A stretch of 59,844 bases of DNA from Peptococcaceae bacterium CEB3 (GTDB lineage: Bacteria; Bacillota; Desulfitobacteriia; Desulfitobacteriales; Desulfitobacteriaceae). Shown here one piece after another: positions 28,197 to 31,246 of this stretch. The DNA lies in the NCBI GenBank assembly GCA_001029295.1, contig LDXJ01000042.1, forward strand, positions 81 through 59,924. The letters run 5' to 3'. The stretch's first letter is position 1; each line of letters begins with the position of its first letter. Made by a program: the position numbers and the translations under genes. The notes below the pieces were generated by a model that did no database searches, had not been told where the DNA came from, and saw nothing but the letters and a program-made list of their open reading frames with translations.

Positions 28197-29693
28197 TCAC
28201 GCCGGATCGTAACCGACCACAGTCCAAATTCCGGTCGCGTCCTGGCGCACCAGCCGCTTCAGATAGACGGTTCTGATCGGTCCCTTGTCCACCCGGACAA
28301 CGGCTTCTACCCCTGTGTTCACTACCAGCTTGAGGGAGGAATAAGCGATCGGCGGGTTTCCTTTGATTCCTCCCGGTGACATCTTGAGAGCCACAAAAGT
28401 CTGAGCTACCTGAAGAGGATCGAGTTGCCAAGGGCTGCTGCCCGCATCCACCTGCTTCTGGTTATTCTTAACCACTGCCAAATCTACGGGAACTTGAACC
28501 TCCGCTGCCTTGCCCGCCCCCGGTTTCGCTTGCGGCAAGGTGATCTTCGTCAGCTGCCCGGCCAATTCAAGCGCCTGAGGCCCTTCCGCTTTAATTTCCA
28601 AACCACTTTGGCGCCAGCGCAGACTATCCTTCAACACTTCCAGTTGGCCGCCGTCCGCCTGCCCAAGGCTGGCTCCCGGGGACAGAACGAAGGGGGCATC
28701 GGGTACCGTTTCCGAAACGACGGTGTCTCCGTAAGCGAAAACGACCCTTTTCGCCCGGGCATAGATCTCTTGCGGCTTTTTCTTTGGCTCCAACGGTGTA
28801 ATGCCGCTGATTTTCTCCGCCTCCGCCGGATTTGCCACCGTTTGCCCATAATTCCGGTCCACAATCTTATACCCCTGGGGCGGTTTGTAAGCGAAGACAG
28901 ACGCCGGAACGCTAACATTCGGCTCAAAACTTATAAAAGTATAAGTCGTTTGCACCGCGTTTTGCATCGCGGTCTGCAAGCGAACGGGCAAGTGAGTTTC
29001 ACTGTCAACCCAGAGAAAGTAAGGGAGTCCCCCCGGGGGTGAAATTTCAATGCGTTCGGCACTGCGCCCGGCCACTGGGTCCCGGCCCACCGTTTTATGT
29101 GGATACCGGACTGCTTTGGCCGCTTCCTCGCGCAAATCAAAAGCCCGCTGATCCGGATAGAGCGGCAAGAGAATCACTTCTTTGTCTTTCGGATCTACCT
29201 GCCAGTGCTCTTTTCCGTTGTTTACGGTCATACTCCCATCCTGGGCACGCACCGCATAATGATTTCCTTGTGACCAGATTTCCAGGCGCTGGAATACTTG
29301 ACTCCGGCCGGTCGCATTGGTGGTGATCTTCTCCAGCACGCCATGATAGCTTTGCAGTTTGCTCACCGTCTGCTCCATAGCTTGAACCGGGTCGTTCCCG
29401 CCGAAGGACCAGGGCGCAAGCAGTATCACCACTGCCAACAAGCCCGCCACCAGGGCGGCCCAGGGCAGTATAACCCGTCTGTGCTTTCGACCAGTCGAGT
29501 ATGGCTCGGGCAACTTCCGAGCCAGGTTTCTGACGAATTCGCGGCTGGGTTCGGCGTCGCCTCGCAGCCCTTTGACCATGCGGACGAGAGACTGCAGTTC
29601 CGCCGTGTCGGGATCTCGGCTTGCCACAGGTCGGTGTTCCATATTAAGGCTGTCGATAAACTCGTCAAGTTCTTGTTCGGGCGCTTTTGACAT
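28197..29693 (-). CDS. Membrane anti-sigma-like protein with RseB/LolA-like outer domain
   Basis: A 498-residue protein. Residues 1-70 are cytoplasmic, acidic and basic, with a pattern like the sigma-binding part of anti-sigma factors but without a zinc motif. One membrane helix follows (about 74-94, VILPWAALVAGLLAVVILLAPW). The rest is outside: about 105-290 resembles the LolA/RseB lipid-sensing fold (MEQTVSKLQSYHGVLEKITTN, FLWVDSETHLPVRLQT, FAYKPPQGY), and the C-terminal 200 residues are unassigned. The gene follows an ECF sigma gene by 4 bases with GGAGGA. It most likely holds that sigma factor and releases it on an envelope signal. Confidence 0.75.
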   Translation of the reverse strand: MSKAPEQELDEFIDSLNMEHRPVASRDPDTAELQSLVRMVKGLRGDAEPSREFVRNLARKLPEPYSTGRKHRRVILPWAALVAGLLAVVILLAPWSFGGNDPVQAMEQTVSKLQSYHGVLEKITTNATGRSQVFQRLEIWSQGNHYAVRAQDGSMTVNNGKEHWQVDPKDKEVILLPLYPDQRAFDLREEAAKAVRYPHKTVGRDPVAGRSAERIEISPPGGLPYFLWVDSETHLPVRLQTAMQNAVQTTYTFISFEPNVSVPASVFAYKPPQGYKIVDRNYGQTVANPAEAEKISGITPLEPKKKPQEIYARAKRVVFAYGDTVVSETVPDAPFVLSPGASLGQADGGQLEVLKDSLRWRQSGLEIKAEGPQALELAGQLTKITLPQAKPGAGKAAEVQVPVDLAVVKNNQKQVDAGSSPWQLDPLQVAQTFVALKMSPGGIKGNPPIAYSSLKLVVNTGVEAVVRVDKGPIRTVYLKRLVRQDATGIWTVVGYDPA

Positions 29694-29697
29694 TTCT

Positions 29698-30210
29698 TCA
29701 GTCCTCCTTCACTTCAACCTGCTGCATAAAACCACGCAGCATCTGCAAAGCCCGGTATTGCAGACCCCTGATAGCATCCTCACTCTTACCCATGCGTTCG
29801 GCTGTCTCCCTGCGGGAGTAGCCCTGAACAATGCGCAGATCCAAGACCTTGCGGGCCTCAAGTGGCAATTTGTTTAAGAGGTCCCGCAGGAAAAGTTTGT
29901 TCACGACTTCGTCTGCCTCCATCCGTTCATCCGGTCTGTTTTCGTCCACGTTCGAAATGGGGTGGGCCGATAAACGCCTGTAGCGATCATAAATAAGATT
30001 TTGGGCTGTCTGCCGCAGATACGCATAAGGAGGAAGGCCGTTTCTGCCTTTATACATTTTCAAACAACGAACATATGCCTCTTGCGTGATGTCTTCCGCC
30101 TCGGCTCTGTTTTGCAATTGCCCGTAAACGAATCGATAAAGCCGCGTCACGCTTTGGTTGTACCATGTTTCGGTTTCATCTTCCATGGACCGGTTTCCGT
30201 CCGCTCCCAT
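29698..30210 (-). CDS. ECF-type RNA polymerase sigma factor
   Basis: This 170-residue sigma-70 family protein has region 2 (about 15-85, SVTRLYRFVYGQLQNRAEAEDITQEAYVRCL) and region 4 (about 110-165, LPLEARKVLDLRIVQGYSRRETAERMGKSEDAIRG). It lacks regions 1 and 3, as ECF factors do. It is co-transcribed with the RseB-like membrane partner. A GGGGGTG site precedes the ATG by about 12 bases. Its target promoters are unknown; autoregulation from just upstream is likely. Confidence 0.9.
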   Translation of the reverse strand: MGADGNRSMEDETETWYNQSVTRLYRFVYGQLQNRAEAEDITQEAYVRCLKMYKGRNGLPPYAYLRQTAQNLIYDRYRRLSAHPISNVDENRPDERMEADEVVNKLFLRDLLNKLPLEARKVLDLRIVQGYSRRETAERMGKSEDAIRGLQYRALQMLRGFMQQVEVKED

Positions 30211-30271: not shown

Positions 30272-30308
30272 GAAAAAAACCGCGGCACCGACATTTCGGT
30301 ACTGCGGT
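30272..30308 (-). terminator. Rho-independent terminator below the YopX-like gene
   Basis: On the minus strand a 13-base stem with two mismatches (ACCGCAGTACCGA with its complement) around loop AATG is followed by TTTTTTTCTT. It ends the riboswitch/YopX transcript before the sigma gene. Confidence 0.8.
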
Positions 30309-30436: not shown

Positions 30437-30799
30437 CTATCGCACGAGATCGCTGTTTTCGAACTGGTTACCCACCAGTATGCCCTTGCCAACGTCGATA
30501 ATACTGCGATTGCCGGAATCTCCCACCTCGACAAGTTCAAAGCTTGCTGCCTCTTGGCTCCAAGTCACTCGGTAGATTGTCCCCGAAATCTTAACAAAGT
30601 CACCTTCGTACACCTCTTTGCCCTTAGTGTCAGATAAACCCGTCCACTGGAGCAACTCGAATTTCCCGACAGGTTCCCACGAGCGGCCGGGGACACTGAC
30701 GGCGAAAGGGGCCAGACTCTGGATATCAAACGTAATAGCCTGCGGCTTCAACATCGTTCTTTTGACTTTGTCCCAGACCTTGAACTTAAACTCCTTCAA
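30437..30799 (-). CDS. YopX-domain protein (phage-like)
   Basis: A 120-residue protein of the YopX family, which is usually found in Gram-positive prophages. The opening KEFKFKVWDKVKRTMLKP and the diagnostic LLQWTGLSDTKGKEVYEGDFVKISG are clear. The start is TTG at 30799 with GAGGAG upstream; the frame is open for 33 more codons but those overlap riboswitch-terminator DNA. No other phage gene is near. It lies directly behind a c-di-AMP riboswitch and terminator, so its expression is probably controlled by that nucleotide. Its biochemical function is unknown. Confidence 0.8.
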   Translation of the reverse strand: MKEFKFKVWDKVKRTMLKPQAITFDIQSLAPFAVSVPGRSWEPVGKFELLQWTGLSDTKGKEVYEGDFVKISGTIYRVTWSQEAASFELVEVGDSGNRSIIDVGKGILVGNQFENSDLVR

Positions 30800-30882
30800 A
30801 TTGCCGTCTCCTCTCTCACTGGACTGAGCCTTGAACTGAGCTTGCGTTGCAAAGAAACTCCGACGCGTGCAGCCAAAACGGG

Positions 30883-30922
30883 AAAAGCACAAACACAAAC
30901 CCCGGCTTCAGCAAGCGCGGGG
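30883..30922 (-). terminator. Terminator of the c-di-AMP riboswitch expression platform
   Basis: On the minus strand CCCCG-C-GCTT-GCTG-AAGC-CGGGG folds into a stem and is followed by TTTGTGTTTGTGCTTTT. It lies about 40 bases below the aptamer and about 100 bases before the YopX start, where a riboswitch terminator would be. Confidence 0.75.
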
Positions 30923-30961
30923 TCCAAAGGTACATAGACGTATGAAAGCTATACCCAGCCA

Positions 30962-31106
30962 CTACATCTCCTTTCAACGCTTACGAAGTTAGCTGACGGG
31001 TTCGGGTCGAAAGATAACCCTACCGCACGAAGTAAAACACCCGTGTGGATTCACCCCGGAAATTTGGTTCCCCCGTTTCTCTGACAGAGAACTCAGCGCT
31101 TGAAAA
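30962..31106 (-). ncRNA. c-di-AMP (ydaO-yuaA) riboswitch aptamer
   Basis: The minus strand contains the conserved blocks of the ydaO class in order: CGCTGAG, GGGGGAACC, CCGGGGTGAATCC, a variable hairpin, GGTAGGGTTATCTTTCGACC, CGAACCCGTCAGCTAAC, TTCGTAAGCG and TTGAAAGGAGA. All are in the usual spacing. In most species this RNA turns off cell-wall hydrolase, potassium or osmolyte-transport genes when c-di-AMP is high. Here the only gene before the next terminator is the YopX-like one. Confidence 0.93.
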
Positions 31107-31246
31107 ATCATCACCTTATGCAGTTTTTGCTGTCTTTAGGGTTTCCGGCCACGAATGGTCAGGCAACAGCCTGTAATTATTTTACCATGCCGGGCCGGGT
31201 CTGTCAAAAATCTCCCCCGCCCACACTTTCAGTCCCGCGTTGAGGC
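31107..31246 (-). other. Spacer between panB and the riboswitch
   Basis: This stretch should hold the riboswitch promoter on the minus strand, reading from panB's stop. No convincing -35/-10 pair was fixed. Confidence 0.3.

Follow-up and report, generated by a model that had tools for sequence, protein, structure and literature searches.

Riboswitches of the ydaO class, as described in the literature, act through termination of transcription induced by c-di-AMP (PMC9960051). An OFF-switch layout of this kind is described for the ydaO/kimA switch of B. subtilis (RF00379; PMC9960051, PMC7266159), and the targets in the ydaO/yuaA, kimA class are mostly K+ or osmolyte transporters or wall hydrolases. 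The nlpC and rpfA riboswitches of Actinobacteria also respond to c-di-AMP and control genes for proteins acting on the cell wall (PMC9960051); they work without a canonical terminator, and the wall enzymes are controlled directly.

The locus that we analyze here lies in a 59.8-kb stretch of DNA (the window, meaning the whole stretch analyzed) from a close relative of Acididesulfobacillus acetoxydans (NZ_LR746496). It shares the OFF-switch layout of the B. subtilis switch and, with the ydaO/yuaA, kimA class as a whole, a full-length aptamer, a promoter, a terminator and a complementary antiterminator, but its target is a YopX-family gene. Unlike the nlpC and rpfA switches, it has a terminator, and it precedes the gene of a small protein to which no function is assigned. 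We found no paper joining YopX and a c-di-AMP riboswitch, and as regards the literature that we searched, YopX is a new target of the ydaO class. YopX proteins are a widespread phage family with solved structures, and to our knowledge no function has been reported for them. As an output of c-di-AMP signalling YopX would be a new candidate, and a chromosomal branch of the family on a c-di-AMP switch would give a first hint of what these proteins do outside phages, in a functional context that can be tested.

Aptamer, expression platform and target gene

The features of the locus are collected in Table 1. The c-di-AMP aptamer is the sole Rfam match in the window; cmscan aligns it to all of the model (positions 1-134 of 134, E 9.4e-23), with a score to be compared with an RF00379 gathering score of 38. 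The sequence-only reading had placed a ydaO-class aptamer at 31106-30962, one or two bases away from the ends found here (31108-30963), and a low score in the covariance-model check that it named was not observed. It also named yopX transcripts starting below the aptamer as a refutation, and the promoter scan gave no candidate site in that region. It had also described a terminator hairpin behind the aptamer and, further on, a single YopX-domain gene ended by a terminator of its own, and both descriptions hold. The hairpin (30925-30897, with a U-rich tail) is missed by a simple consensus scan but recovered by folding; the gene matches PF09643, and its closing terminator lies at 30308-30273.

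Table 1. Features of the riboswitch-yopX locus, in window coordinates
Feature	Position	Strand	Evidence
Promoter TTGACA-17-TAAAAT, extended -10	31179..31207	-	11/12 consensus; A. acetoxydans keeps it, reading TTGACA...TGGTAGAAT
c-di-AMP riboswitch aptamer, ydaO class (RF00379)	30963..31108	-	cmscan, 100.6 bits
Antiterminator half 1: 5' strand of aptamer P1, CAAGCGC	31096..31102	-	7 perfect pairs with GCGCUUG
Antiterminator half 2: terminator 5' arm/loop, GCGCUUG	30912..30918	-	Folding, complementarity
Riboswitch intrinsic terminator, hairpin 30925-30897 and U-rich tail	30882..30925	-	Fold, -18.4 kcal/mol
Ribosome binding site AGAGGAG	30808..30814	-	Sequence; kept in A. acetoxydans
yopX-like gene, TTG start, 120 aa	30437..30799	-	PF09643, 46.7 bits; 23 further genomes of the order have an orthologue
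Intrinsic terminator closing the yopX unit	30273..30308	-	Hairpin and sequence

The two antiterminator halves form a duplex of 7 pairs (-12.1 kcal/mol), and this complementarity between the P1 strand and the terminator arm is identical in A. acetoxydans. When the leader is truncated right behind the terminator 5' arm, the predicted folds contain the CAAGCGC/GCGCUUG pairing and P1 is absent. By sequence and folding, therefore, the aptamer occupies a 5'-UTR position with a terminator/antiterminator expression platform. Given this pairing, a ligand-stabilized P1 would leave the terminator arm free, and without ligand the P1 strand would serve as antiterminator. From the arrangement of these elements and the gene, we predict an OFF switch of the standard kind, acting on transcription. 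At high c-di-AMP, the aptamer would fold, P1 would form, the terminator arm would stay free, and transcription would halt ahead of yopX. At low c-di-AMP, the 5' P1 strand would pair with GCGCUUG, no terminator would form, and YopX would be made. In other bacteria, low c-di-AMP goes with low osmolarity or low K+, or with wall stress. The window genome encodes a diadenylate cyclase (PF02457, 155.4 bits). We infer from the sequence both that the aptamer binds c-di-AMP and that the switch works in the OFF direction, and we consider it probable that this YopX-family gene, a chromosomal resident, is controlled by a canonical transcriptional OFF switch that responds to c-di-AMP.

The aptamer-YopX pair in related genomes

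Six genomes have a c-di-AMP aptamer and a YopX gene as a pair (the window genome, G000; A. acetoxydans, G001; and G009, G022, G024 and G030), in all of them on the same strand with the aptamer 120-330 nt upstream. If we assume about 3 such aptamers per 5-Mb genome, we estimate the chance of one standing at most 500 nt upstream of any given gene, in the correct orientation, at about 1.5e-4; the pairing is seen in 6 of the 24 genomes that have the gene.

The promoter is retained in A. acetoxydans together with the aptamer, its terminator, the ribosome site and the gene, and the synteny extends over the right flank. On the left the two differ, with panB in the window and an ABC-transporter operon, which by eye looks osmoprotectant-type, in A. 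acetoxydans; the breakpoint directly precedes the promoter. The window encodes an ECF sigma factor as well as an RseB-like protein downstream of yopX (28197-30210), and in A. acetoxydans (L073 10550-11395) these two are fused in a 281-aa frame, apparently by deletion.

At the other four loci the order is riboswitch, YopX, response regulator, histidine kinase. The response regulator is OmpR-type (PF00072, with PF00486 shown for the G009 copy), the kinase has HAMP, HisKA and HATPase_c domains, and G009 has, behind the kinase, a class A penicillin-binding protein, PBP1A (Transgly and Transpeptidase). These loci have a terminator at the equivalent position (-20 to -30 kcal/mol), and their P1/arm pairing is less simple than that of the window. 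The switch is absent in G054, which has response regulator, kinase, YopX and PBP1A in that order, and in G067, which has YopX and PBP1A; G067 apparently keeps a switch-type terminator (GGGACCTGCGTCTGGTTAAACGCCGGTCCC) without an aptamer, which reads as loss of the aptamer. Close orthologues of the kinase are found in 7 of 84 genomes, with none in the window genome or A. acetoxydans, so that the window carries a reduced, single-gene form.

Did YopX acquire its switch once or twice? In the phylogeny, aptamers group by target gene, and the nearest relatives of the two Acididesulfobacillus YopX aptamers are those of the citrate-synthase type (79-80% core identity), as opposed to the other four YopX aptamers (67-72%), which share 85-99% among themselves. 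A constraint that makes all six YopX aptamers a single clade lowers the log-likelihood by 23.5 units, with a p-AU of 0.054 that does not fall below 0.05, whereas a tree that places the window and A. acetoxydans aptamers with the citrate-synthase group is not rejected (p-AU 0.37); these tests rest on 108 columns. The expression platforms also differ between the two sets, and the YopX protein tree requires four changes of the switch trait. The aptamer phylogeny hints that YopX may have come under c-di-AMP control twice, and we tentatively entertain two independent recruitments, one from a citrate-synthase-type switch, in Acididesulfobacillus, the other in Desulfosporosinus and relatives, as a reading that has somewhat less than an even claim. 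On the other side, a FastTree run with the untrimmed alignment grouped both sets, together with a few other aptamers; the core CGCTGAGTTC is common to both; and the terminator apparently kept in G067 shows that losses occur. Two recruitments would be compatible with the OFF switch, YopX on the Desulfosporosinus side heading an operon with the two-component system.

For 18 of the 24 orthologues there is no c-di-AMP switch within 1.5 kb, a count in which adjacency may be missed because several of the surveyed genomes are fragmented MAGs; thus the role of the gene does not depend on c-di-AMP control. A permissive cmscan found no decayed aptamer before these 18, and a matching terminator was found in G067 only. 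Several switch-free orthologues (L045, L046, L048, L044, L038, L066) have in common a leader about 110 nt upstream of yopX, GTTTCC..ATGGTAAAAGATACAAGC..ACCCTCTTAAA..TTCCTnnTGCGTA..CTTTCGCAG..AAGGAGG. Its core occurs once in 47 genomes, ahead of yopX in G017, and the leader may be a YopX-specific cis element. As a known RNA it was rejected, with no match in Rfam, and RNAalifold gave it a weak structure (-2.5 kcal/mol) that lacks compensatory changes.

That switch-free orthologues possess a conserved leader of their own, and that 163 nt separate the aptamer from the yopX start codon, would suit an arrangement in which a genuine aptamer is followed by a genuine terminator that mainly insulates, yopX being transcribed from another promoter. 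We think this unlikely, since the promoter scan found no promoter-like site between the aptamer (30963) and the yopX start (30799), the strong promoter kept in A. acetoxydans is immediately upstream of the aptamer, and terminator and ribosome site are conserved. The OFF switch remains our preferred reading of the locus.

A chromosomal YopX subfamily

The YopX domain spans the whole protein (46.7 bits, cutoff 22.4). The start of the gene is best placed at the TTG at 30799, behind the ribosome site AGAGGAG; an alternative longer frame of 153 aa begins at 30898, within the terminator region. The match to NCBIfam TIGR01671 (phage conserved hypothetical) has 28.7 bits, below the curated cutoff of 41.3. 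With an alignment of 18 rows, the best of five AlphaFold2 models has a pLDDT of 83.8 and the remaining four 40-67. The predicted fold is beta-rich, and Foldseek matches it to the solved YopX-family structures 2qyz (TM 0.70, E 7.7e-7) and 2p84 (TM 0.73, E 9.5e-6), with 2ox7 matched as well; the structure search gave no confident match outside the YopX family that would point to a biochemical function. YopX is a small protein, beta-rich and presumably cytosolic. The window protein thus has domain and fold in common with the YopX family (PF09643, phrog_98), and it belongs to a chromosomal subfamily whose signature, PQAISFD..PFAVSVPGRSWEP.GKFELLQWTG, is not seen in phage records.

A profile built from 25 orthologues was searched against 74 genomes of the order and 398 genomes of the phylum. 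Exactly one copy each is present in 24 of the 74 (179-209 bits, 48-92% identical). One further copy of the subfamily is in a Pelotomaculum MAG, and the next best score in the 398 genomes, members of the subfamily set excluded, is 65 bits. The best phage relative has about 34% identity, and the best full-length viral contig about 31-34%. Nine window neighbours were tested, and none gave a specific phage signal, the matches being to widespread enzyme and sigma-factor families; around the orthologues, too, lie genes of the host, ScpA, methylmalonyl-CoA mutase and a glycosyltransferase among them. Neither adjoining phage genes nor close phage relatives were found, then, and the misleading 'phage' annotation of the gene is corrected. 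The window and A. acetoxydans proteins are 92% identical, and the low ratio of dN (0.033) to dS (0.73), about 0.05, together with the kept promoter, aptamer, terminator and ribosome site, indicates strong purifying selection on yopX. By these sequence comparisons, the YopX subfamily is single-copy, chromosomal and resident in the order; its deep origin may still be phage.

The sequence-only reading had called YopX an unusual target for a ydaO switch, which agrees with our survey of the order, where the other switches precede mostly wall, osmolyte, citrate-synthase and K+ genes. It had also proposed either that phage DNA had replaced an original target or that c-di-AMP controls a captured phage gene, and the reading of recent phage DNA behind the switch does not stand. 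A recent arrival of a phage gene behind the riboswitch after loss of the original target, YopX being incidental, could be argued from the mostly phage membership of the family, from the citrate-synthase-type affinity of the window aptamer and from a search, run without a positive control, that found no citrate synthase of that type in the window genome or A. acetoxydans, but it is largely refuted by orthology and we consider it very improbable in view of the single-copy orthologues, the distance of every full-length phage relative, the host neighbours, the dN/dS, the citrate-synthase loci, which show no synteny with the window, and the recurrence of the aptamer-YopX pairing in five other genomes, other genera among them. 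The citrate-synthase riboswitch loci being non-syntenic with the window, loss of an original target from the locus was rejected as a candidate: replacement at the site cannot be demonstrated. In a weaker form, another target may once have stood behind the window switch, its aptamer being closest to the citrate-synthase type.

YopX among the c-di-AMP targets of the order

We surveyed the 80 other aptamers of the order, taking the first downstream gene only, as mechanical open reading frames with one representative per group compared to Pfam. Behind them are NlpC/P60 hydrolases with G5/LysM (n=39), lysine-2,3-aminomutase-like radical SAM enzymes (n=19), citrate synthase (n=8), Kup K+ transporters (n=4), amino-acid permeases (n=2) and singletons, among them a CBS-domain ATPase of an ABC transporter. 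With a two-component system next to it, and in one case PBP1A, YopX fits the envelope and osmotic theme of this regulon. At the window and A. acetoxydans loci the two-component system is absent and there is no close kinase orthologue, so the envelope link rests on the relatives.

YopX is a lineage-specific member of the c-di-AMP regulon. Its most likely place would be the branch concerned with envelope or turgor, where it might serve as an adaptor or modulator tied to the OmpR-type two-component system and the class A penicillin-binding protein that are its operon partners in relatives. We propose an envelope role with some hesitation, as a suggestion drawn from these neighbours that may well be wrong. 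More speculative, and in our judgment rather doubtful, is the fuller proposal that a domesticated YopX is a dedicated c-di-AMP effector or adaptor, coupling to the OmpR-type system and PBP1A and recruited by the riboswitch twice independently.

Two of the other target groups deserve mention in their own right. In eight genomes of the family (L102, L103, L104, L105, L112, L119, L130, L143), the gene that follows a c-di-AMP riboswitch encodes citrate synthase, and these loci tie c-di-AMP to central carbon metabolism. Lysine-2,3-aminomutase-like genes stand at 19 riboswitch loci, including L107-L111, L114, L116 and L117; beta-lysine is a precursor of compatible solutes, so these targets fit osmolyte control. 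Finally, the second c-di-AMP switch of the window genome (L002 1501-1640, G000:C56) precedes an NlpC/P60 hydrolase gene, and an OLE RNA (RF01071, 2857-3140) is found on the same strand at a distance of about 1.2 kb.
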